From Nitrospirota bacterium (GTDB taxonomy: Bacteria > Nitrospirota > Nitrospiria > Nitrospirales > Nitrospiraceae): a stretch of 64,000 nucleotides of DNA. The notes beneath the pieces are model-generated. The model made no database searches and was not told where the DNA came from. It worked only from the letters and a program-made list of their open reading frames with translations. The stretch spans positions 1-64,000 of the forward strand of contig JACRLR010000015.1 of NCBI GenBank assembly GCA_016219645.1. Direction: 5' to 3'. Positions 3,889 to 34,377 of this stretch are shown piece by piece. Position 1 is the first letter of the stretch, and each line of letters opens with the position of its first letter. The position numbers and the translations under genes were made by a program.

Positions 3889-3967
3889 TGGTGGAGGGCA
3901 GGGTCAACTGGTGGGGTTGACCGACGCCCTGCGCTTTGATATCAATGTGTTAGCAAAGGTGGCGTAA
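3889..3967 (+). pseudogene. attL core plus displaced recombinase tail (alternative C-terminus)
   Basis: The 15-bp core (3889-3903) runs in frame into CAA CTG GTG and on to TAA at 3965-3967. If the element is excised, the recombinase frame from 13316 passes through the core into this sequence without a shift, giving a tail that ends LTDALRFDINVLAKVA. The predicted circular-form enzyme has 574 residues instead of 555. A stop codon (3878-3880) lies in frame just left of the core, so the tail is silent while integrated. GTCAAC (3903-3908) and GTTGAC (3916-3921) form an inverted repeat inside the tail. Confidence 0.8.
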
Positions 3968-3979
3968 GGGCGTGGCGTG

Positions 3980-4552
3980 CTAGTGGGGCTCCACCTTTAG
4001 CTTCCCATTCTCCATCGTCATTGTCCCAAACTTATTTATGTCTTCAGGGAAGCTACCTCCGTCCCAGAATAATTGCCATTCCACAGTAAAATTCTCCAGC
4101 GGAACTTTCAACGACATATTGCCGAGGTGCACGCTGCGTTCCTTGAACAGTGGGCTGTTCTGGGTTCCTCCCACCTTATAAACATCTTTCCCGTTAATTC
4201 TCACCCAGTCTGGGGTTCGCTTTTCCCACAGGTTGCGGTCTCCGAGACCAAACCGCTTAGGGGTATCCTCAGGAAATATGAATGTGTAATTGAAACCGTT
4301 CACGGTGTTCTTTCCGGCATTCCTGACCACGAACCGAATGTCATACTGCGGGCCATTGGGCGGGAACTCTCGAATGGTGACTTGAGGATCAAATCTAAGC
4401 TGGACGCTCTTATCAACAAAAAACGTCTCGTAGATCGAGTACCAACCATTAAACACGACAGGCACGACAGTGGCCAGAACTCCAATAATGAAAACCTTGT
4501 CCAGACGACGCTGTCGCCAATACCATAGCCACCATTGCCCCAGAAGGTTCAC
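3980..4552 (-). CDS. Membrane-anchored protein partnered with a PEP-CTERM-type protein
   Basis: The start is taken as the GTG at 4552-4550, which overlaps the stop of the upstream gene (GTGA), giving 190 residues. A short Trp-rich cytoplasmic start (WWLWYWRQRR) is followed by one membrane segment (VFIIGVLATVVPVVFNGWY, about 20-38). The remaining ~150 residues would lie outside the membrane and look like a beta-sandwich (FDPQVTIREF, YDIRFVVRNAG, FTVEWQLFWDGG). I do not recognise the family. The translational coupling suggests that it works with the secreted protein just upstream. A longer ATG start at 4723 overlaps that gene heavily and is unlikely. AT content is higher than in the neighbours, consistent with transferred cargo. 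Confidence 0.6.
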   Translation of the reverse strand: MNLLGQWWLWYWRQRRLDKVFIIGVLATVVPVVFNGWYSIYETFFVDKSVQLRFDPQVTIREFPPNGPQYDIRFVVRNAGKNTVNGFNYTFIFPEDTPKRFGLGDRNLWEKRTPDWVRINGKDVYKVGGTQNSPLFKERSVHLGNMSLKVPLENFTVEWQLFWDGGSFPEDINKFGTMTMENGKLKVEPH

Positions 4553-5277
4553 GCCTGAAGGCTCGACGACCGCATACCAATTCCAATTCCTAGAAGGGTG
4601 ATTATGCCAATCCCAAACAAAAGGGCGGACGCGGGCAAGGGTACCGGAGCAACAGTAGTAAGAGATGTGATAAGGCCCCTCATAACTGGCTGGCCCTGGT
4701 TGTTGAAGAACTGCAGTCGCCATGTGGCGGTTTGATTGAGGCCGTTGATGCTGGGAGGGGTCTCCGGGAGTGTCGTCTGGTTGTCTAACATCGTACCACT
4801 AGGGTCGGTGATGTCCAGGTTAAAGAGCGATGGCACGAACGTGTTGACGGGATAATAATTGGGGTTAAAGACGCGAGGCGTTAACAGAACCTGCGCGTGG
4901 TATTCGTCATTCAGAAAGAAATTCACAAGGTCGATATTTGTTTCCGACGGGGGGGCTGTGAACGGCACCGTATAGTCGCCAATCGTGATGGAGCCCTGCG
5001 TAATGGGGCTGATATTTATCGCGCCGCCTACCCCGAAACGGCCAGAATTGCCAGGAGTCGAAGTGTCAACTGTGTAACGACCAGAAAACGGAAGAGCTTC
5101 GTGAAATCCGTTCACACCCGTACCATTGAGCGCTTTAATCTGGCTAGGAACCTCGGCGATAGTCCCATTGAAATAAAAGGTAACCAAAGCGGCTTCCGAG
5201 GGCATTGTCCATACTGCAAGTGACTGTCCAAGGATAATGGACATGATAAAGAATATGGATTTGAAATGAGAGTTCAT
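4549..5277 (-). CDS. Secreted protein with VPLPAS (PEP-CTERM-type) sorting signal
   Basis: The start is ATG 5277 (MNSHFKSIFFIMSI). An N-terminal signal peptide ends near AVWTMPSEAA. The body is beta-rich (GTIAEVPSQI, GRYTVDTSTPGNSGRFG, QGSITIGDYTVPF). The C-terminus has VPLPASALLFGIGIITLLG followed by a polar end, the layout of the VPLPA variant of PEP-CTERM signals cleaved by exosortases: motif, hydrophobic stretch, then basic residues (here only one Arg, MRSSS). It is expected to be exported and processed at the inner membrane for the envelope or exopolysaccharide layer. Its place at the left end of the element, opposite in strand to the phage-like genes, marks it as cargo. Confidence 0.72.
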   Translation of the reverse strand: MNSHFKSIFFIMSIILGQSLAVWTMPSEAALVTFYFNGTIAEVPSQIKALNGTGVNGFHEALPFSGRYTVDTSTPGNSGRFGVGGAINISPITQGSITIGDYTVPFTAPPSETNIDLVNFFLNDEYHAQVLLTPRVFNPNYYPVNTFVPSLFNLDITDPSGTMLDNQTTLPETPPSINGLNQTATWRLQFFNNQGQPVMRGLITSLTTVAPVPLPASALLFGIGIITLLGIGIGMRSSSLQA

Positions 5278-5504
5278 AATCGCCCCTTCCAGTGCGGTGT
5301 GCCTAAGATTTGGCAAGGGATGCTAGGCGAAAAAAAAGTTCTTGTCAATCTGGCTGGTGAGGCGAGGTCGGCGCAAGCTCGTTTACATTTGGGTTGGTGG
5401 GACTGCATAGTGACGCCGTGGGCCGCTAGGGTAGCTCCCGAACAACCGACTCCTCATCGGTTTGCGGCCCTACAATCCTGAGGGCGTCAATGAGGGGACG
5501 CATC

Positions 5505-6047
5505 ATGAAGAAGATCCCGCCAAAGCCCATCCCACCATGGCTGCGCAAGATTATTGATGAGGCCGAGGACCCTGCCGCCTGTATGCAGGCCATCCGGCGC
5601 GTGGTGATGCCAGTATGGCGGAAAGCACACCCCCGCCGCAAAAAGACAGGCCCACGCCTTGACCCTGTCCTCGTTCGGGATGCGGTGATGAATGTGTTGG
5701 GCAACTTGTCGCCCAAGGCCTTCAATGCCATCACCTACAAATGGTTTATTCAGGAAGTACAAAAGGAGTTGGGTGGGAGTCACTACAAAAAGCGTGATGA
5801 AAAGCGGGAAGGTGTGGGTCACCCGTATAACGCCAACCTGATCCGTCGGGTGACCCGCCATGTGATGGTGACCATTCCTGAGTCCAACGTCCCCCCCAAC
5901 CTGCTCACCCGCCGGCGTCAGTGGAAACTGGACCCAGCTCTGGCTTACACACGGCCGGTGATCTTTGCCGCCGAACTGGACGGAGAACAGTTCTACCTCC
6001 CCGCAACCGCCACCTGGACCGATCAAGTAAAAAAGTCAAAAAAGTGA
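5505..6047 (+). CDS. Hypothetical basic protein of the element
   Basis: 180 residues; ATG 5505 is preferred over 5490 because GAGGGG sits about eight bases before it. It is very basic (KKIPPKPIPPWLRK, RKAHPRRKK, KKRDEKRE, ending VKKSKK), has no signal peptide, and contains a helical middle (LVRDAVMNVLGNLSPKAFN). The composition fits a nucleic-acid-binding protein. I do not recognise the family. It opens the plus-strand gene series of the element, 200 bases after the divergent PEP-CTERM-type gene, so the gap probably holds divergent promoters. Confidence 0.6.
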   Translation: MKKIPPKPIPPWLRKIIDEAEDPAACMQAIRRVVMPVWRKAHPRRKKTGPRLDPVLVRDAVMNVLGNLSPKAFNAITYKWFIQEVQKELGGSHYKKRDEKREGVGHPYNANLIRRVTRHVMVTIPESNVPPNLLTRRRQWKLDPALAYTRPVIFAAELDGEQFYLPATATWTDQVKKSKK

Positions 6048-6103
6048 CACGAAGTTACTGAACTCAGTATCATGTTTGCTGGGTTTTTTGTAGTAAGGGC
6101 GGT

Positions 6104-6484
6104 ATGGTACGCCGCCGCCCACAGCAAGCCCCCGCACCAGCCTACCCAAGCCGTGAGTGGACCCGCCTGGCCGCTAAGTCCCTGTATGACCCCCCTGGGG
6201 TAACCATTTCCATCGGCAACTTCCACTTCATAGTCTTTGAAAACTACTCCGCCAGGTCTGTGTACTTGCATTGTGCAGAAGGGTTGTACACGGCCGCCAA
6301 GCAGGAGAAGGCCAAGGACTGGACCAAGTTTGTTCAAGCGGAACATGCCCGACGCCTAGCCCTGTGGTACGCCCAACAACTGGCCCTGCCCCGCAAGCGG
6401 CGCGCCAAAATCATGGTGCCGTGGCTGGACCCCGATCCCAGGAACCTGGCCCCTGCGGATCGGCAACATGAGGTGGGGCAATGA
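6104..6484 (+). CDS. Hypothetical protein of the element
   Basis: 126 residues, soluble. A Pro-rich start (RRRPQQAPAPAYP) leads to a compact region (GVTISIGNFHFIVFENY) and a basic helix (FVQAEHARRLALWYAQQLALPRKRRAK). It is coupled to the next small gene through ATGA at 6481-6484. The family is not recognised. Confidence 0.55.
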   Translation: MVRRRPQQAPAPAYPSREWTRLAAKSLYDPPGVTISIGNFHFIVFENYSARSVYLHCAEGLYTAAKQEKAKDWTKFVQAEHARRLALWYAQQLALPRKRRAKIMVPWLDPDPRNLAPADRQHEVGQ

Positions 6485-6618
6485 AGGCCGTCCCACTCAC
6501 TGCCGCAGATCGCGAATATTTGACCAACTTGTTGGCAGAAATGTTGGTGAATGAATACCGGCGGGAGGTGAAGAACGATGACGAGCGGCATGAGGACCCG
6601 AAAGGAGAAGTGCAATGA
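6481..6618 (+). CDS. Small acidic hypothetical protein (45 aa)
   Basis: An ATG at 6481 overlaps the preceding stop (ATGA), and the TGA at 6616-6618 overlaps the next start (ATGA at 6615), so three genes are translationally coupled. The 45 residues are mostly one charged helix (LTNLLAEMLVNEYRREVKND). A Shine-Dalgarno-like AAAGGAG near its end serves the next gene. The function is unknown; the coupling is the main evidence that it is real. Confidence 0.55.
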   Translation: MKAVPLTAADREYLTNLLAEMLVNEYRREVKNDDERHEDPKGEVQ

Positions 6619-7334
6619 ACGCAGAGTTGATATGCATTCCTGTAACCCCAAACCTGCCGGTGGTCCTGGCCGATGCGGGCTTGCCCGTAGTGGAGCCCAC
6701 CCTACAGGAGTGGGCGGACATGATCATGGCGGCATCCGGTGAGGCGGTGGAGCGGATCATGGCCATTGGTCTGGTATTGCTGGCGGCAAGAAAATCCGTC
6801 AAGCACGGACAGTGGGAAAAAATGTTCAAGGGCCATCCGCAGGCCATTGACCGGCCCGTTCCCTTCTCAGTCACGGCGGCCAAAATGCTCATGGCGGTGG
6901 CGGCGCATGCCATCCTCGCAAATCGTAACCTGTGTAACGATTTGCCCCCCAGCTACCGCGCCTTGTACGAACTGTCCCTCCTGCCTCATGAAGTACTGAC
7001 CATGCTCATGGCATTTGGTCAAATCACACCGGAGACCACCGTGTCCCAGGTGAAGGCCTGGCGGGAATTCTATACAGGCACAATCCTAAACAAGGATGTG
7101 AAGCGCCGTATCCGCCAGGCCTACAGTTTTGCGAAGGAGGTCAATGTCCTTAATGACAGTCAGGCACAACTCTATCTCTTTTGGGGCAACGTGGCCGGTG
7201 AACTCCGTGGTGAGACTGTGAATTGGACACAGAAGAAAGGGAAGCGGCAACCAGACCCTTGCGTGACCCATCGGTGCCCAGACTGTGGGCACGAACACGT
7301 GGATTGGCGCAGTGATGTGGGGAACCATGAATAG
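6615..7334 (+). CDS. DUF3102-like phage protein with C-terminal zinc motif
   Basis: 239 residues, preceded by AAAGGAG. The middle resembles phage DUF3102 proteins: GLVLLAARKSVKHGQWEKMF, then SVTAAKMLMAVA and LPPSYRALYELSLLP (about 50-130). This family is often near phage replication genes and has a ParB/KilA-like helical look. The C-terminus has CVTHRCPDCGHEHVDW, a possible zinc-binding Cys/His group. It lies directly ahead of the replication initiator, so a role in DNA replication or partition of the element is likely but inferred. Confidence 0.6.
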   Translation: MNAELICIPVTPNLPVVLADAGLPVVEPTLQEWADMIMAASGEAVERIMAIGLVLLAARKSVKHGQWEKMFKGHPQAIDRPVPFSVTAAKMLMAVAAHAILANRNLCNDLPPSYRALYELSLLPHEVLTMLMAFGQITPETTVSQVKAWREFYTGTILNKDVKRRIRQAYSFAKEVNVLNDSQAQLYLFWGNVAGELRGETVNWTQKKGKRQPDPCVTHRCPDCGHEHVDWRSDVGNHE

Positions 7335-7382
7335 TGGATTGGACGGCATGCGATTTTTCACAAGGCAAATGAGGACACAGAA

Positions 7383-8153
7383 ATGCCCTGGATTGAAAGT
7401 CACACGGTCCTAGTACGACACCGAAAAGTGGTCCAGGGTGCGCATGCACTCAACATCACTCCGGTGTATTTCGTGGGGCATCTTACTGTCTTCTGGCATA
7501 CCGTTTTGGAGCAACAAGAGGATGGGGATTTAACCAATTGGCCCGATGAAATGATTGCCCATGCCGCGGCCTATACAGGGGACCCCAGCGCCTTTGTGGC
7601 AGTGTTACAAAGCCAAAAATTACTTGATGGCAAAGTGGTGCACGACTGGCTTAATTATGCCGGTCGGTATCTAAAGAATAAATACAAGACTGCTAACCCT
7701 GGGAAACTTAAAGCAATTTACAAGTTACATTCAGTCCGACTAAAGTCCGACTTCAGTCCGACTAAAGTCTGCCTTCAGTCTGCCCACCTAACCATACCTA
7801 ACCTAACCAGACCTAACCAACCAAACCAAAGAGAAGAAAAGACTGTACCCGCGTCCACAACTGCGACGACGCAGGATGACCACGCCGATAGGGCAGAAAC
7901 ATTCTGGAAAATGTGGCCGGCCAATATGCGAAAAGTGGCCAAGGGTGAGGTGGAAAAGTGGTTCCAAAACCACAAGCCCACGGCGGAACAGTTTTCAATA
8001 ATGCTGGCCGCCCTGGAGGCCCATGTGAAAAGTGAACAGTGGACCACGGAGAACGGGCAGTGGATTCCATTGCCCATGACCTGGTTGAACCAGGAACGCT
8101 GGACGGCCACCGTGGCACCAGTGCCGACGAAAAGGCGAATCATAATCACGTGA
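7383..8153 (+). CDS. Phage-type replication initiator, O/DnaD-like
   Basis: 256 residues. The N-terminal third (VLVRHRKVVQGAHALNI, DEMIAHAAAYTGD, FVAVLQSQKLLDG) has the winged-helix pattern of phage replisome organisers. The C-terminal part (FWKMWPANMRKVAKGEVEKW to IPLPMTWLNQERW, about 185-245) is the typical end of phage replication proteins. Between them, a low-complexity linker is encoded by 11-bp tandem repeats (7733-7787) that look like iterons. Lambda O is the classical case of an origin inside the initiator gene. I infer that the element replicates autonomously after excision. Confidence 0.7.
   Translation: MPWIESHTVLVRHRKVVQGAHALNITPVYFVGHLTVFWHTVLEQQEDGDLTNWPDEMIAHAAAYTGDPSAFVAVLQSQKLLDGKVVHDWLNYAGRYLKNKYKTANPGKLKAIYKLHSVRLKSDFSPTKVCLQSAHLTIPNLTRPNQPNQREEKTVPASTTATTQDDHADRAETFWKMWPANMRKVAKGEVEKWFQNHKPTAEQFSIMLAALEAHVKSEQWTTENGQWIPLPMTWLNQERWTATVAPVPTKRRIIIT
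7733..7787 (+). repeat. Five tandem 11-bp iterons, putative origin
   Basis: Units read AGTCCGACTAA, AGTCCGACTTC, AGTCCGACTAA, AGTCTGCCTTC, AGTCTGCCCAC with no gaps. They are followed by a C/A-rich stretch of CTAACC-type words (7787-7830). They lie inside the coding linker of the replication gene. Tandem spacing of one helical turn is typical of initiator-binding iterons. Confidence 0.65.
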
Positions 8154-8388
8154 CGCGCCGCATTCAAGGGGGGTCTGAGTGAGGATATGGATTTGGGGAG
8201 TTACGCGCAAATTCAGTGGGCTAGCCCCATGGTCGGCACACGCAAGGGGGTGATGCGGTTGGTGGGAGTCCCCACCAAAACGGGCACGGGTGGGTGTGGG
8301 AGGCGTTTTGGGGTGAACAATTGGGGTGGGTGTGCCACTGGAAATCATAGTGCGCCGTCACTCGTAAACGTAGCCAAGGAGGTATGCC

Positions 8389-8604
8389 ATGCCAGTGTTG
8401 CGACCCTTAAAAGCCATTCGGGCAAAATGTTTGGACTGTTGCTGTGGCTCGGCCGTGGAGGTTCGACGCTGTACCGTCACCACCTGTGCCCTGTGGCCGT
8501 ACCGACTGGGGCATCGGCCACACAAGGCAGCGGCGGTGGGCGCACAGCCACCCATGGAAGCCACGGGGGCACATGTGCACGTGGGGCAATGGCTCGGTGA
8601 GTGA
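8389..8604 (+). CDS. Small Cys-rich prophage protein
   Basis: 71 residues with a strong ribosome site (AAGGAGG, about seven bases before ATG 8389). The core (IRAKCLDCCCGSAVEVRRC, then TTCALWPYRLGHRP) matches a small protein often seen in prophages, with Cys spaced as CxxCC...C...C, probably a zinc finger. The overlapping frame at 8187-8600 is longer but has no family pattern, so this frame is chosen. The role is unknown. Confidence 0.68.
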   Translation: MPVLRPLKAIRAKCLDCCCGSAVEVRRCTVTTCALWPYRLGHRPHKAAAVGAQPPMEATGAHVHVGQWLGE

Positions 8605-8720
8605 GGCCAAGATATTAGGAATACAACGGGTCCTCCCTGCCTGTGAAACAAGCGGGTAGGCAGGCACGCACATATTCGCTAGCAGCAGGATGAAATTTCA
8701 TAGAAGGAGGAAACGCACTC

Positions 8721-9173
8721 ATGACAGAAAACGAGTTACTGGCGGCCATAAAGATTTCACCCAGCGGGTTGCAGAAATGGATCACCAAGGGCCTCCCGTA
8801 TACGGTGGTCCACAACAGGCGGCGGTTTAACCTTCGGGAGGTGCAAGCCTGGCGCAAGGCCAATATCACCCCCAAACCTGGTCCAGAGTTGCTGGCTGGC
8901 CGCGTGCGGTTACAGCACATCAGGAATGAAGAACGGGAATTCAAGTTAGCCATCTTGAAGGGGCAGTGTGTGGAACGGGTGAAGGTGGACAAGTACCTGT
9001 TTGCAACTGGCCGGCAAGTGCGGGATGGCATGTTGGCACTGCCTGACCGGTTGAGCGCCATGTTAACAGCGGAATCCGATGCGCACCGATGCCATGCAAT
9101 CCTGACCCAGGAAATTGAACGTGTGCTGGAGGGCCTGTGCACCCAGCCCCCGTGGGGTGACGGCACCGTATGA
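8721..9173 (+). CDS. Nu1-like HTH protein (possible terminase small subunit)
   Basis: 150 residues, ribosome site AGAAGGAGG before ATG 8721. The N-terminus is a MerR/excisionase-type winged helix (ELLAAIKISPSGLQKWITKG, then RRRFNLREVQAWRK). The rest is a helical region with FKLAILKGQCVERVKVDKY and a long helix ending QEIERVLEGL, the arrangement of lambda Nu1-type small terminase subunits that recognise cos/pac. No large terminase follows, so packaging would need a helper phage enzyme. A second protein with the same HTH plan follows. Confidence 0.65.
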   Translation: MTENELLAAIKISPSGLQKWITKGLPYTVVHNRRRFNLREVQAWRKANITPKPGPELLAGRVRLQHIRNEEREFKLAILKGQCVERVKVDKYLFATGRQVRDGMLALPDRLSAMLTAESDAHRCHAILTQEIERVLEGLCTQPPWGDGTV

Positions 9174-9204
9174 CCTTGTCGTTGCTGGTGCGCTCGCTGG
9201 TGGG

Positions 9205-9651
9205 ATGGAACGTATGACCCTGCCCCAAGCGGCTAAACTATTGAACCTCCATCCCGCCACGTTGCGAAAATGGATTCGCAACGGTGCGCCCACCATTTCG
9301 TTAGGGGAAGTCGGCCGAGGCCATGGCACCACGGTGGATCTCGAACAACTCAAAACCTGGCGGGCGACACGAGCGGTCCCCACATTGGCCGATCACGACA
9401 AGCGCGATACGCTCTCCATTGTCAGCACCGCCTTGCTCGATGCGTTGAAGCGGGATGCGCTCGCTGGAAAGGCCGGACTGACCGAGGGGCAAGCGGCGAT
9501 GGTCGTGCTGGTAATTTTTGAGCGATGCTATCGCAACATTCACAAAGCCCCGTTGACCGCAGACACCCTCCCTCCTGAATTGAAGCCGTTTGGCGCAATT
9601 GTTTTACAATCCATCGAGTCAGGATCGTTCATCACTTCAAGGAGGACCTAG
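9205..9651 (+). CDS. Second Nu1-like HTH protein
   Basis: 148 residues from ATG 9205 (9214 is an alternative; no strong ribosome site separates them). The N-terminal HTH (LPQAAKLLNLHPATLRKWIR, then GRGHGTTVDLEQLKTWRA) is of the same class as in the gene before it. The C-terminal half is helical (LSIVSTALLDALKRDALAG, AAMVVLVIFERCYRNIH). Two small HTH proteins ahead of a capsid gene could be a packaging-redirecting pair, or one could be a regulator. Confidence 0.58.
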   Translation: MERMTLPQAAKLLNLHPATLRKWIRNGAPTISLGEVGRGHGTTVDLEQLKTWRATRAVPTLADHDKRDTLSIVSTALLDALKRDALAGKAGLTEGQAAMVVLVIFERCYRNIHKAPLTADTLPPELKPFGAIVLQSIESGSFITSRRT

Positions 9652-9655
9652 CATC

Positions 9656-10687
9656 ATGAATTTAATTGAACAACAGTCCATCGACCGTGCCCGCAACCTG
9701 CTCAACAGTCTCCAGACAGCCCCTCGGCGCACCACGCTCTCCACCGTGCGCGCCCTGCTCGCAGCGGCAGAAGGCCGGTACCGGCACGGTGCACCGGAAG
9801 AGTACGACGCCTGGGGCACCATGGACGGCAATCCACAGCGGATCGTCATTCCGTTTTCCCATTTGCGCGATCTCAATACGAGTGTCGGATCAGCGGGTGG
9901 CTACGTCACCGGCACGACCACGAAGGATTTGACGTTGCCCTTGGTCGGCGCGAATGTCGTGGCAGCAGGGGCGAATCTCATTTCGGGTTTGTCGGAAAAT
10001 CAGGTCCACCCCCACGTCACCACCAAGCCCCCGTTTATCTGGCAGCCGACTGAGACAACGCAGGTGCCCAACGATACCACGACCGTCCTGAATCAAGCCG
10101 CTGCGGCGATTCATCGGGGCGGCATTAACTATCGTGTGTCACGGCAACTCCTGTTGCAATCGAACGCGGAAGTGGCTGTCTCGCAGTTACTCACGCAACT
10201 CGGCAACGACGCGCTCGATCTTGGCGCGTTGAACGGGTCGGGTGTCGCGGGGCAGCCGCAAGGCATGTTCTCCATCGCGGGCGTCCAGTCCGTCAGTGGC
10301 ACCTCCCTGAATCTCACAGGCCTCGCCACAGCGGAAGCCAATTGCGTCACCGCCGATGCCGACGATGCGCACCTCGCGTGGTTCGTGCATCCAGGCGTGC
10401 GGCAATTGCTCAGGGCACGGGAAATCACGGCGGGGGCCGGTTCCCTGTGGCCAGGGCGTGAGTTGCTGGGACACGCGGCCTATGTCTCCTCCAAAGTGCC
10501 GTCCGCCTCGCTGCTTGTCGGGGATTTCCGCAACGTCGATATTCTCTTGTTTGGGCAGGGAGTGGAAGTGCTCGTGAATCCCTATGCCGATTTCCAAAGC
10601 GGACGTGTGGAGTTTCAAGTCAGCGTGGCGATGGATGTGCTCGTCCACTACCCCGCAAGTTTTACAAAGTCCGTCTCCATTACATAA
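9656..10687 (+). CDS. HK97-fold major capsid protein
   Basis: 343 residues, ribosome site AAGGAGG before ATG 9656. The order of segments fits HK97-type capsid proteins: a short helical arm (to about 60), GGYVTGTTTKDLTLPLVGAN with an E-loop-like beta arm, WQPTETTQVPNDTTT, a spine helix region (INYRVSRQLLLQSNAEVAVS), ALDLGALNGSGVAGQPQGM, then AWFVHPGVRQLL, LGHAAYVSSKVP, LLVGDFRNVDILLFGQGVEV and a C-terminal beta strand. The N-terminal delta domain is much shorter than in HK97, and no protease gene is near. This is the only structural gene of the element that I can name. Confidence 0.82.
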   Translation: MNLIEQQSIDRARNLLNSLQTAPRRTTLSTVRALLAAAEGRYRHGAPEEYDAWGTMDGNPQRIVIPFSHLRDLNTSVGSAGGYVTGTTTKDLTLPLVGANVVAAGANLISGLSENQVHPHVTTKPPFIWQPTETTQVPNDTTTVLNQAAAAIHRGGINYRVSRQLLLQSNAEVAVSQLLTQLGNDALDLGALNGSGVAGQPQGMFSIAGVQSVSGTSLNLTGLATAEANCVTADADDAHLAWFVHPGVRQLLRAREITAGAGSLWPGRELLGHAAYVSSKVPSASLLVGDFRNVDILLFGQGVEVLVNPYADFQSGRVEFQVSVAMDVLVHYPASFTKSVSIT

Positions 10688-10699
10688 GGAGTGATCGCA

Positions 10700-10960
10700 A
10701 TGCGTACCGTACAAGAAATTGAACAACAGGCGGAACGTGCGTGGGCACGAGGGCAATTGGAGGAACGCGAGCGCAATCGACGGGCGGAACTGAGTCGTCC
10801 ACCGTCGCCGAACGATGCGCGACTCTTGCGGCCCACGTTGGTCCGTGTGCTCAAAGGCTTCTGCGTCCAGGGCAAGCTCGTTGAACTTGGCGCGACCATC
10901 ACGTTGCAACGACACGATGCGGAGTCCTTGGCGGCCTTGGGCAAGGTGGAACTGCTGTGA
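10700..10960 (+). CDS. Small head-completion-like protein
   Basis: 86 residues; ATG 10700 has AAGGAG at about 10685-10690. The N-terminal half is one charged helix (QEIEQQAERAWARGQLEERE). The C-terminal half (FCVQGKLVELGATITLQRHD, then LAALGKVELL) resembles small phage proteins that follow capsid genes and carry a short beta motif with a final helix. Its position directly after the capsid gene supports a head role; the family is uncertain. Confidence 0.55.
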   Translation: MRTVQEIEQQAERAWARGQLEERERNRRAELSRPPSPNDARLLRPTLVRVLKGFCVQGKLVELGATITLQRHDAESLAALGKVELL

Positions 10961-11166
10961 AACGGATGTGTGAATGTGGACGGCCGGTGCATCTCAAGTT
11001 CCAGGACCGGTTGCCCAGGCACGGGGCGGAACGTCCGAGGGATCACACCTTGTGCCAGCAGTGTTATCGCCGGATGCGGAATCAGGTGCTTGCTGCCAGG
11101 AAAATGCCGAAACCCTGGTGGGCAGGACAGGTGACGGGAGCGGATGGGCAGCTATTACGGATATAG
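10957..11166 (+). CDS. Small zinc-finger-like protein
   Basis: 69 residues from GTG 10957, which overlaps the previous stop (GTGA). CECG (about 5-8) and CQQC (about 33-36) give a CxC...CxxC set that could bind zinc. It is rich in Arg/Lys. No family is recognised; translational coupling supports it as a gene. Confidence 0.5.
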   Translation: MKRMCECGRPVHLKFQDRLPRHGAERPRDHTLCQQCYRRMRNQVLAARKMPKPWWAGQVTGADGQLLRI

Positions 11167-11412
11167 GTGGGTGCGGGCAATCTCCACGGCGCAACGGGGG
11201 CAGTGCCGAAAAAACAATTTGGCGCGGGTGCTCGCACCGGTACTGGCCTGCGCCATTGCCCCACACACGAGGGACGGGGACCTTGGGCGCACCGATTCCC
11301 CAGCACCGATTGATTGGGGTCAGTCAGTCGGTCGCACCATCGTCGGTGCGCCATTAATTATTGGATCAGGGGATTTGTTCAGGGGTGGAGCCAGTGGCAG
11401 GGGAGGGCTGTT

Positions 11413-11502
11413 ATGACACACGACCATTTCTTTCGGTGGATCGTTGGGCTCACAGTCATGCTGGTGGCGGTGGTCTGGTGGCTGCTGTGGCTGTGGCGGT
11501 AA
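11413..11502 (+). CDS. Tiny single-pass membrane protein (29 aa)
   Basis: A 29-residue frame with GGGAGGG about nine bases before the ATG. After MTHDHFFRW it is one Trp-rich hydrophobic helix (IVGLTVMLVAVVWWLLWLWR). It could be a small lysis or holin-like protein, but nothing beside it (no endolysin) supports that directly. Confidence 0.45.
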   Translation: MTHDHFFRWIVGLTVMLVAVVWWLLWLWR

Positions 11503-11542
11503 CGTGGTTGAGGGCCTTCCCCAACCTGTGACGCCCCTGGGT

Positions 11543-11565
11543 GCCCACACCCCAGGGTGTGGGGC
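11543..11565. terminator. GC-rich hairpin upstream of the recombinase
   Basis: GCCCACACC pairs with GGTGTGGGGC (one bulge) around a CCAG loop. No T-run follows. It separates the capsid gene series from the recombinase gene and may limit read-through. Confidence 0.4.
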
Positions 11566-11669
11566 GGCTGGGACAGCTTCTGAATATGAATAGATTTGTC
11601 ATCATATAGGACGGTATAATTTCCTAGCAGGAATTGCGGATCAACGTGTACAGACAAGGAGGCCCCACC

Positions 11670-13337
11670 ATGCGCGCCGCCATTTATGCCAGGAAAAGCA
11701 CGGACCAAACCGGTGTGAACGAGGAAGACAAAAGTGTTACCCGCCAAATTGCACATGCCACAGTGTACGCCGCCAAGAAGGGGTGGACGGTGGCCGATAA
11801 CCACATCTATGTGGACGATGGCGTGAGCGGGGCGGAGTTTGTGAAGCGCCCAGGGTTCCTGCGGTTGATGAATGCGCTCAAGCCCAGGCCGGACTTTCAG
11901 GTCCTCATCATGTCGGAAGAATCCCGCCTTGGACGGGAACAAATTCAAACCGCCTATGCCCTGCAACAGATCACGGATGCTGGGGTGCGGGTGTTCTACT
12001 ATTTGACCGACCAGGAGCGCACCCTGCATACGGCCATGGATAAGATGATGGTCTCGTTGACCAACTTCGGGGCGGAGATGGAACGGGAAAAGGCCAGCCA
12101 GCGCACCCACGATGCCATGATGCGGAAAGCCCTGGCTGGCCATGTGGTGGGCGGGGGCATCTATGGGTATGACAACCAGGAAGTCAAAGGCACAGACGGG
12201 CAACGGCTCCATGTGATTCGTGTGGTGAATCGTGAGGAGGCCCCCGTGGTGGTGCGGATTTTTGAACGCTACTTGGCCAGTGAGTGTGGCCTCACCACCA
12301 TTGCCAAAGACCTCAACATGCAAGGGGTCCCGCCCCCCATGGGCAAAGGCAAGGGGTGGTGTCCCAGCTGTATTCGGGAAATGCTGCGGCGTCCTCTCTA
12401 TCGGGGGCAGATCGTGTGGAATCAAAGCCAGGCCATTCACCGCAACGGCACCCAAACTTCCCGCAAGCGTCCCAAAGCGGAGTGGATCACCCTGGACGCG
12501 CCGGACCTGCGCATTGTTCCGGAACACTTGTGGGAGCGGGTGCAAGCCAAGATTGCCCGTGTGGGGGCCCTGTATACCAGGACCCCCGATGGGCACCGCC
12601 TGCTGCGCAGTCCCAACGGGGCCACCTTCCCGTCCCCCTATCTGTTGAGTGGCATCGCCCAATGTGGCACGTGTGGGGGGTCCATCGTGGCCCAACGGCG
12701 GGGGTCCAAACACGGCAGGGATGTGTACATGTGCATCCACCATCACAAGCGGGGGCCCACGGTGTGTGCGAACGATTTACGCATTGACCAAGGCATTCTC
12801 AATTCGGCCTTGCTGCACGGGTTGGCCTCGGTGCTGGACGATCAAATGATTGCCGAAGCCGTGAAGCGGGCCCTGCTGGACATTCGCAACGGGCAGACCA
12901 AGTTCCCCACACAACGGCTGGCCTTGGAACGACAACTGTCCTTGGTGGAAGCCCGCCTGCGCCACTTTGTGGAATTGGCGGCCACGGGGCGTTTGACGGA
13001 TTCGGCCTATGCGGAAATGGTGAAGGAAGAAGCGGCCAAGAAATCCCTGGCCGTGCAACTGGAGGACCTGGATAATTTGATGCGCATGGCCTCCCTGGAT
13101 GGGAAGCGGATCGAGCAGCGTCTACGGGGGTATGTGGCCAACCTCAAGGGCGTGCTCAACGCCAACACCCCACAGACCCGCCTGGCACTCCAACGCCTCA
13201 TTCAAGGGCGGGTGGTGTGTACCCTGTTTGACGACCACCGAGGGCGGGGGTATGCCGTGACGGCCACGGGTTCCTATGTGGGCCTGTTAGGGGAGGGAAC
13301 CGTGGTTAACGCCAGTGGTGGAGGGCAGGGGAGTTGA
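11670..13337 (+). CDS. Large serine recombinase (integrase) ending inside tRNA-Ala
   Basis: 555 residues from ATG 11670 (AAGGAGG nine bases upstream). Resolvase catalytic domain at about 1-145 with YARKSTDQ (nucleophile Ser about 10), EESRLGRE and the long helix AEMEREKASQRT. The recombinase domain is at about 160-300 (GGIYGYDNQEV, CIREMLRRPLYRGQIVWN). A zinc ribbon is at about 335-375 (CGTCGG, YMCIHHH, VCAND), then a coiled coil (RLALERQLSLVEARLRHFVE). The last codons (GGGQGS, stop 13335-13337) lie within the tRNA-Ala gene on the other strand. In the excised circle the frame would instead continue into 3904-3967. It should catalyse integration and excision; attP within its own 3' end is unusual for bacterial serine integrases. 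Confidence 0.9.
   Translation: MRAAIYARKSTDQTGVNEEDKSVTRQIAHATVYAAKKGWTVADNHIYVDDGVSGAEFVKRPGFLRLMNALKPRPDFQVLIMSEESRLGREQIQTAYALQQITDAGVRVFYYLTDQERTLHTAMDKMMVSLTNFGAEMEREKASQRTHDAMMRKALAGHVVGGGIYGYDNQEVKGTDGQRLHVIRVVNREEAPVVVRIFERYLASECGLTTIAKDLNMQGVPPPMGKGKGWCPSCIREMLRRPLYRGQIVWNQSQAIHRNGTQTSRKRPKAEWITLDAPDLRIVPEHLWERVQAKIARVGALYTRTPDGHRLLRSPNGATFPSPYLLSGIAQCGTCGGSIVAQRRGSKHGRDVYMCIHHHKRGPTVCANDLRIDQGILNSALLHGLASVLDDQMIAEAVKRALLDIRNGQTKFPTQRLALERQLSLVEARLRHFVELAATGRLTDSAYAEMVKEEAAKKSLAVQLEDLDNLMRMASLDGKRIEQRLRGYVANLKGVLNANTPQTRLALQRLIQGRVVCTLFDDHRGRGYAVTATGSYVGLLGEGTVVNASGGGQGS
13316..13330. other. attR core of the element
   Basis: TGGTGGAGGGCAGGG, identical to 3889-3903 and, for 14 bases, to 158-171. 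On the minus strand it is the 3' acceptor arm and CCA of tRNA-Ala, so integration restores an intact tRNA. Confidence 0.78.
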
Positions 13338-13391
13338 ACCCCCGACCCCTACGTTGCGAACGTAGTGCTCTCCCAACTGAGCTAGCCCCCC
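13316..13391 (-). tRNA. tRNA-Ala(CGC)
   Basis: 76 bases with encoded CCA. The acceptor stem GGGGGGC pairs with GCCCTCC (one G-U). The D arm has GCTCAGTTGGGAGAGC. The anticodon arm CTACG-TTCGCAA-CGTAG gives anticodon CGC (codon GCG, alanine). The T arm CAGGGG/TTCAACT-type loop is present (GGGGGTTCAACTCCCC). The gene is the target of the adjacent element and overlaps the 3' end of its recombinase. Confidence 0.93.
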
Positions 13392-13439: not shown

Positions 13440-13468
13440 ATTATACACAACCATTTCATGAGTCTCTA
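13440..13468 (-). promoter_or_regulatory. Promoter of tRNA-Ala
   Basis: On the minus strand TGTATAAT gives a perfect -10 (TATAAT at 13445-13440), with TAGAGA (13468-13463, 4 of 6 matches to TTGACA) 17 bases upstream. The start would be about 40 bases before the mature tRNA end. The remainder of 13469-13715 holds nothing I can name. Confidence 0.6.
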
Positions 13469-32997: not shown

Positions 32998-34377
32998 ATG
33001 ACCGAAGAGTGGGGTGCAATTCTTGTTGTGGATGACGATGCGGAAATGCGGGAGCTCGTCCACGATGTGCTCAAGGACCGAGGTCATCAAGTCACAACGG
33101 CTGGGAGTGGACAGGAGGCCTTGACGCTGTTGAGCGAGCAGGATTATGCCGTCGTGTTGACGGATTTGCGGATGAAAGGGCTGTCGGGGACGGAGCTGTT
33201 GGTCGAGATCAGACGTCTCTACCCGGATATCGGGGTCGTTCTCATGACGGCCTTTGGATCGGTTGAGACAGCGGTCGAGGCCATGAAGCTGGGCGCCGGC
33301 GACTACTTGACCAAGCCGGTAAAAAACGATGAGTTGGTTCGCATCGTGGAGCGGTGCATCCGCGAATCGTCGTTACGGCGCGAGGTGAACAGGCTGCGGC
33401 GCGAGGTTCGCAGGGAGTACAGTTTTCATCAGATCATCGGCAAGAGCAAACCGATGCAGGAGATATTCGATCTGATCCGGCGCGTGGCCGATAGTCCGAC
33501 GAATATCCTGATCACCGGCGAGAGCGGAACCGGCAAGGAGTTAGTGGCCAAGGCGATCCATTACAATAGCGATCGCCGGGATGCGCCGTTTATCCCCGTC
33601 AACTGCGCCGCCATTCCGGAACAGCTGCTCGAAAGCGAGTTGTTCGGCCACATGCGAGGCGCCTTTACGGATGCGAAGGTGGACAAACGCGGCCTCTTTG
33701 AGGAGGCGCAGAAGGGCACGCTGTTCCTCGACGAGATCAGCGAACTGCCGTTGATGCTGCAGGCCAAGATCTTGCGCGCGATCCAGGAGAAAGAGATTCG
33801 CCGCGTGGGGGCCAACAAACCGATTTCCGTCGATGTGCGCATCATTGCGGCCACGAATCTCAAGCTGACGGAAGAAGTTAAGGCCAAGCGCTTCCGGGAA
33901 GACTTGTATTACCGGCTCAATGTCATCGAGCTGCGGCTGCCTCCCTTGCGTGAGCGTCGAGAGGATATCCCGCTGCTCGTCAATGCCTTTATGAAGAAGT
34001 ATGACGAGTCTCGCGGAAAACAGGTACAGAGCGTGAGCGAATCAGCGCTGGCGATGCTTGTGGATTATGCCTGGCCGGGCAACGTACGGGAACTGGAAAA
34101 TGTGATCGAGCGGGCCGTCACGCTCAGCCGAAACGAGAACATCGTTCCTGATGATTTGCCGTCAATGATTCAAGGAGCCCGCGGCGATCGGCGCGTACTC
34201 GACGATGCAGCTGAACGGACGCTGCCATTGGATCAAGTGGAGAAGGAGTATATCCTCAAGATCCTCGAAAAGACCGGAGGCAACAAGTATCAAGCCGCTC
34301 ACGCCCTTGGTATCGACCGTAAAACGTTGTATCGTAAGCTCGCCGAGATCGAAGGTACACCTCATCCAGAGGAATGA
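32998..34377 (+). CDS. Sigma54-type response regulator with GAFTDA loop
   Basis: 459 residues; ATG 32998 with AGAAGGAG is preferred over the longer frame from 32860, which crosses a repeat. Receiver at 1-120 (VVDDDAEMRE, phosphoacceptor in VVLTDLRMKGLSG, Lys in YLTKPVK), AAA+ at about 145-375 (Walker [25 protein letters not shown]), Fis HTH at the end (NKYQAAHALGIDRKTLYRKL). The sigma54 loop reads GAFTDA instead of GAFTGA. A PAS histidine kinase follows after a palindromic repeat and is its probable partner. Confidence 0.86.
   Translation: MTEEWGAILVVDDDAEMRELVHDVLKDRGHQVTTAGSGQEALTLLSEQDYAVVLTDLRMKGLSGTELLVEIRRLYPDIGVVLMTAFGSVETAVEAMKLGAGDYLTKPVKNDELVRIVERCIRESSLRREVNRLRREVRREYSFHQIIGKSKPMQEIFDLIRRVADSPTNILITGESGTGKELVAKAIHYNSDRRDAPFIPVNCAAIPEQLLESELFGHMRGAFTDAKVDKRGLFEEAQKGTLFLDEISELPLMLQAKILRAIQEKEIRRVGANKPISVDVRIIAATNLKLTEEVKAKRFREDLYYRLNVIELRLPPLRERREDIPLLVNAFMKKYDESRGKQVQSVSESALAMLVDYAWPGNVRELENVIERAVTLSRNENIVPDDLPSMIQGARGDRRVLDDAAERTLPLDQVEKEYILKILEKTGGNKYQAAHALGIDRKTLYRKLAEIEGTPHPEE

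Follow-up and report, generated by a model that had tools for sequence, protein, structure and literature searches.

In integration-dependent immunity, described for mycobacteriophages (BPs and clusters G, I, N and P) and for M. abscessus prophages, the phage attachment site (attP) lies within the repressor gene. When such a phage integrates at the 3' end of a transfer RNA (tRNA) gene, the repressor loses ~20-35 residues, often with an ssrA-like -AA tail (PMC4557955, PMC8092301, PMC9262239). Recombinases that disrupt their own gene have been called exclusive to archaea in a review (PMC8371274). According to PMC9262239, mycobacteriophage serine integrases do not use tRNA genes for integration, which makes that class of target notable in itself for the enzyme considered here, a large serine recombinase encoded by an integrated element of a Nitrospirota bacterium (assembly GCA_016219645.1). 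The 64,000-nucleotide stretch analysed, referred to as the window, comprises positions 1 to 64,000 of contig JACRLR010000015.1. Based on the sequences compared, it is almost certain that attP lies inside the 3' end of the recombinase gene (int) and that integration exchanges the C-terminus of the enzyme.

The features of the window that define this layout were as follows.

11670-13337, plus strand: large serine recombinase (int), integrated form, 555 amino acids (aa), with Resolvase, Recombinase and Zn_ribbon_recom domains and catalytic Ser10
13316-13391, minus strand: tRNA-Ala(CGC), the target gene, its 3' end overlapping the 3' end of int (ARAGORN)
13316-13330: attachment core at the int/tRNA junction, 15 bp, TGGTGGAGGGCAGGG, identical to 3889-3903
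3889-3903: nearest distal attachment core, TGGTGGAGGGCAGGG, with 15-bp identity to 13316-13330
3904-3967, plus strand: int C-terminal tail, displaced coding sequence (QLVGLTDALRFDINVLAKVA and stop), in frame with int across the core and homologous to 25 other reconstructed tails
158-171: second core on the distal side, either an older or an alternative partner, 14-bp identity
172-236, plus strand: second displaced tail, AFLPSLTDALGVTIQGVALVA and stop, homologous and in frame with int

By its domains the window enzyme is a large serine recombinase, or serine integrase, predicted to recombine attP with the bacterial site attB. It matched the Pfam families Resolvase (E 1e-25), Recombinase (1e-21) and zinc ribbon (4e-9), its top PHROG was phrog_95 integrase, and Ser10 and the ESRLGR motif were both found. 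The integrated form terminates in NASGGGQGS, and the first base of the core is the exact 3' end of tRNA-Ala(CGC). An initial sequence-only reading had placed the end of int inside tRNA-Ala, with the core at 13316-13330 and 3889-3903, and these coordinates were right on rechecking. The in-frame join that it proposed, giving 574 rather than 555 residues with a stop ending at 3967, was also reproduced, the product ending SGGGQG-QLVGLTDALRFDINVLAKVA (stop codon 3965-3967). The copy at 158-171 had been overlooked; joining to it likewise retains the frame and yields 574 aa ending GGGQ-AFLPSLTDALGVTIQGVALVA (stop codon 234-236). No core copies other than those at 158, 3889 and 13316 were present in the window.

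Relatives were searched in 296 genomes of the phylum, 33 of which had matches at the cut-off, and a family-level search added more. Searching viral and genome collections with the single window protein as query gave no matches; alignment-based scans succeeded. Named records holding relatives include Nitrospira and Acidobacteria. The ends of int were expected to reach the tRNA in homologues too, and in 42 of the 54 ints examined (mostly Nitrospirota) the 3' end did lie antisense within the 3' end of a gene for tRNA or transfer-messenger RNA (tmRNA). The target genes encoded tRNA Ala-CGC, Glu-UUC, Met-CAU, Asn-GUU and Ser-GCU, and tmRNA. The shared core block began at the mature tRNA 3' end, and int and tRNA were convergent in every case, so that the integrated enzymes end on antisense tRNA sequence: GGGQGS, GVPNGI, SPTGFEP.. 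or GGGIEPPTCGL. The C-termini SPTGFEPV, GVPNGI, GGGIEPPTCGL and WLPGQDSNLRPAG mark the layout and could help to find further cases.

Distal sites were defined as further copies of the tRNA 3' end upstream of each int and were kept if the match was at least 12 nt and int was intact and unmasked (24 sites); two sites with shorter cores were added with the tail in view, giving 26. All 24 sites with cores of at least 12 nt continued int in frame into a related tail (for example PSLAKAVSFKITGVAVAI, PSLTFTIQGKVLAA, TERPLSFTIDLLVVAA and NFCFSIDVLALAA), and the int frame outscored the other two at 26 of 26 sites. The tRNA-Glu cores were entered by ints in three different frames (WCPQR, VSPTG and GVPNG), with the tail in the matching frame each time. 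Tail length was 25 codons at 14 of the 26 sites (range 20-32 codons), pairwise ratios of nonsynonymous to synonymous substitution rates (dN/dS) were mostly 0.2-0.5, and past the tail stop similarity fell to 17-30% in the more diverged pairs. Because of this frame match, clustered length, dN/dS and loss of similarity after the stop, the tail is coding sequence under selection, and an integrated element is unable to express it as part of int. Attachment cores were present at both ends of 21 elements. With tails conserved in 21 element loci and phage genomes carrying an uninterrupted long form, the C-terminal swap claimed in the sequence-only reading is strongly supported. For the decayed ints of G249 and G253 a readable tail was not found, and for several elements the distal site was not found, mostly as the contig ended.

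Uninterrupted long forms were found in viral collections, where the tRNA-Met integrase clade shows both states. In ten phage lineages (L346, L360, L370, L371, L373, L374, L376, L377, L354 and L355) int runs unbroken through the core into the tail. L346, a phage contig of 58 kb that was found in three metagenomes, has genes for capsid, portal, terminase and tail proteins. Two others are deposited phage genomes: Rhizobium phage RR1-A (L354), whose long form ends VAGERFEQSPQIILGRFVA, and Microcystis phage Mae-JY30 (L355, PP438422), whose long form ends RFGVIAA. The prophage forms L359, L361-L366, L368, L369 and L380 instead end V[AV]GGGIEPPTCGL, which is antisense tRNA-Met. On the int tree the number of state changes was 7, compared with 8.1 expected with shuffled labels; because the two states are intermixed, long and short forms look like states of a life cycle rather than lineages. 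Terminal repeats that would indicate circularity were sought in L298 and in the 58-kb phage L346 and were not found. Viral contigs lacking end repeats are taken as free genomes rather than tandem prophages because phage genes lie on both sides. The expectation that homologues would differ in their C-termini when free and when integrated thus held for the tRNA-Met group; a search of the viral contigs for unbroken long forms of the close Nitrospira family found none. Two ints, those of L298 and L110 (G360 and G312), were considered as natural long forms and rejected, as the tail that follows them is foreign and either decayed or out of frame. On the contig of L364, L379 carries what appears to be the tail of the next element, as tandem prophages predict.

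The cores of the two deposited phages were compared with alphaproteobacterial tRNA genes. A first-guess tRNA core of RR1-A had no match in Alphaproteobacteria; for RR1-A itself the match to tRNA-Met was limited to the first 9 nt, TGGTAGCGG. With a looser pattern, the core of Mae-JY30 was the 12-nt 3' end of alphaproteobacterial tRNA-Met, and for this reason its stated cyanobacterial host may merit checking.

The sequences show a family of large serine recombinases that target tRNA or tmRNA genes at their 3' ends and have attP near the end of int, beyond the last folded domain. In the circular or phage form, int continues across the core into a conserved tail of ~15-25 residues; integration moves the tail coding sequence to the far end of the element and leaves int ending on antisense tRNA sequence. 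From these observations a mechanism can be proposed. The tail would act as a C-terminal tag that can be removed, and in the main family this tag would be a proteolysis signal of the ssrA-like kind (-AA/-VA). As long as the element is free, the tag would give the enzyme a short life; the integrated enzyme would be stable and ready for excision once a directionality factor appears. Integration would then edit the integrase as it edits the repressor in integration-dependent immunity. Taken whole, with the internal attP, the tail swap and a removable tag that limits the free enzyme, this account is somewhat better than evenly balanced. The broader proposition, that a serine integrase has its stability or activity state set by its own recombination, with a degradation-type tail in the free form that tRNA integration cuts off, so that the enzyme records integration, is held more tentatively, at a little under even chances.

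The removable tag is favoured because of the bias of the tail ends, the structural models and the parallel with integration-dependent immunity. Of the 21 tails in the main (close) family, 15 end in -AA and 20 in -A, compared with 3.0% and 10.2% of background proteins from the same DNA; none of the 42 integrated forms ends in -AA, and the host tmRNA tag ends LALAA. In predicted models of two natural tailed proteins the folded domains stop short of the core, and predicted local distance difference test (pLDDT) scores are below 50 over most of the linker and tail, which is weak evidence given that the model alignments held few tail sequences. The -AA/-VA ends, the flexible, low-confidence tail and the immunity parallel fit removal of a proteolysis tag better than a change of reaction direction.

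Several observations weigh against this interpretation. Most tails in the distant reconstructed groups have no -AA end but keep a hydrophobic stretch, F.PTI.V.L, and both window tails end in -VA; ssrA-type recognition therefore cannot explain everything. Conservation of the tail also reaches well upstream of its last residues. A tail fold or contacts between subunits are possible, the model alignments having contained almost no tails. The integrase of BPs-type phages, moreover, retains its own tag after integration (PMC4557955, PMC8092301, PMC9262239). As a separate observation, among serine recombinases that do not overlap a tRNA (L138-L297), -AA ends occur in 23 of 127 and -A ends in 54 of 127, which is above background with relatives counted individually, and C-terminal tags may be common among serine integrases generally.

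The remaining features of the element and its flank were listed, the genes from a scan of a subset of its open reading frames.

3904-13315: integrated element body, ~9.4 kb, satellite-like, with cores at both ends and phage-type genes within
7383-8153, plus strand: replication initiation protein of the element (phrog_9474, E 1e-38)
8721-9173, plus strand: terminase small subunit-like protein (phrog_57, E 5e-20)
9590-10687, plus strand: phage major head protein-like (Phage_capsid, E 1e-13; phrog_617, E 6e-14)
13440-13468, minus strand: promoter-like site upstream of tRNA-Ala, convergent to int (consensus scan only)

Because it holds a replication initiator, a small terminase and a head protein together with int, the segment 3889-13330 looks like, and may be, a phage satellite of the PICI-like kind. 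Either the copy at 3889 or that at 158 may be the true partner of the window int. The nearer tail (3889) is less typical, and the farther one (158) is more similar to the tail of L099, a close relative. G094 has a comparable arrangement, with another, nearer tail in front of the one that most resembles those of its closest relatives. Between 158 and 3889, the core and in-frame tail are followed by a DUF6502/DUF5666 gene pair with no int, and this segment may be an older insertion that lost its int or may hold the true partner of the present one. The gene pair was not found on the other elements compared. An empty-site comparison failed to place the host boundary, the left flanks at tRNA-Ala being too variable and only 157 bases of contig preceding the 158 copy.

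Integration at these sites is repeated, as older attachment copies and remnants of int show. Remnants of older ints abut the distal core in G141:C1 3820800-3880700 (L040/L124/L125, attachment site at oriented position 34152), G247:C1 and G149:C1. The G141 remnant is in frame with the tail of the next element, and tandem integration would give the older int a tail again. The tRNA-Ala(CGC) gene beside purN/purM is an integration hotspot found across the genus, often without int: its flank toward purN is conserved and its 3' side differs in almost all genomes, with int in some. Four related recombinases (L138, L140, L225 and L228) end in a partial copy of the 3' part of a tRNA, reaching the anticodon in the two tRNA-Met cases, and a complete tRNA was not found there; these may have a different attachment geometry, the C-terminus perhaps remaining unchanged. 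At L299 (G365:C217, near 6895) a tRNA-Glu core is inverted within the 3' portion of an int that has no tRNA close by; a rearrangement at attachment sites may be the cause.

Alternatives to a removable tag differ in what the loss of the tail would mean. The sequence-only reading suggested that the long form may integrate and the short form excise or be silent; on this view the tail takes part in attP x attB recombination, so that the short form is confined to excision or inactive and the element is locked in. Purifying selection on a tail that is missing from all integrated forms, and the hydrophobic, strand-like stretch common to all groups, are consistent with this, but every recognised domain, including the zinc ribbon, and the coiled coil region precede the core and are intact in the short form, and the tail is modelled at low confidence; we regard this explanation as unlikely. 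It is rather less probable still that int, once facing the tRNA promoter with the former downstream region of the tRNA gone, is shut off by antisense transcription and that loss of the tail is a by-product. The invariable convergence of int and tRNA and the promoter-like site at 13440-13468 directed at int would suit such silencing, which leaves protein-level conservation of the tail unexplained; many tRNA-gene integrases have a different arrangement, and matches to a promoter consensus are weak evidence. Of about the same low probability, or marginally lower, is that the internal attP only keeps enzyme and site together when parts are exchanged, the tail being an ordinary C-terminus whose loss is non-regulatory. 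The int-attachment unit occurs on elements otherwise unrelated in gene content, int decays within tandem arrays, and the same case has been argued for archaeal suicidal integrases (PMC8371274); against it, the strong -AA/-A bias and the regular position of attP, which separates fold from tail, suggest that selection acts on the removed part. Finally, an in-frame tail seen at a single locus could arise by chance from a spurious repeat and an accidental open frame, as a single 20-codon read-through is not uncommon (20-35 open codons in 18% of random reads), but this is extremely improbable and is refuted for the family, since homologues conserve frame, length, sequence and stop over 26 sites and phages carry unbroken long forms.

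Self-editing by integration, known from archaeal tyrosine integrases and mycobacteriophage repressors, is extended by these data to bacterial serine recombinases, and wide use of tRNA genes by large serine recombinases is shown. Serine integrases are prized as tools for the controlled direction of their reactions, and here the reaction itself makes paired long and short versions. Such natural pairs are spread over many lineages, the isolated Rhizobium phage RR1-A among them, which makes the role of the C-terminus directly testable. An int cloned from an integrated element encodes a C-terminus unlike that of the free element, and loss of the tail may be a built-in on/off or stability switch.

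The sequence-only reading knew of no comparable named system among bacterial large serine recombinases that act at a tRNA gene. None was found in the literature either, subscription journals being largely uncovered, and two reviews expect the opposite (PMC8371274, PMC9262239). The domain set of Resolvase, Recombinase and zinc ribbon is that of large serine integrases of the TP901-1, Bxb1 and phiC31 type, but the target here is a tRNA gene, and attP in those systems normally lies outside int. Some bacterial tyrosine integrases with a tRNA target, for example those of some Streptomyces elements, also have an int whose 3' end overlaps attP; the overlap is shared, whereas the recombinase class is different, and we know of no conserved removable tail in such enzymes. 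As in the SSV-type archaeal suicidal integrases (PMC8371274), attP lies inside int, the target is frequently a tRNA gene and integration alters int. Those are tyrosine enzymes split into two inactive halves, whereas the serine enzyme described here keeps its recognised domains in one frame and has only its tail replaced. With integration-dependent immunity the layout shares an attP in a coding gene, a tRNA 3' end as target, a shortened product, removal of a tail that often ends in -AA and, in some immunity cases, a tRNA transcribed toward the shortened gene. There the edited protein is a repressor and the enzyme a tyrosine integrase; here attP lies in int and the edited protein is the serine integrase itself. 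The principle that integration edits a phage protein is thus known, and what is new is the protein edited, the class of enzyme and the generality.

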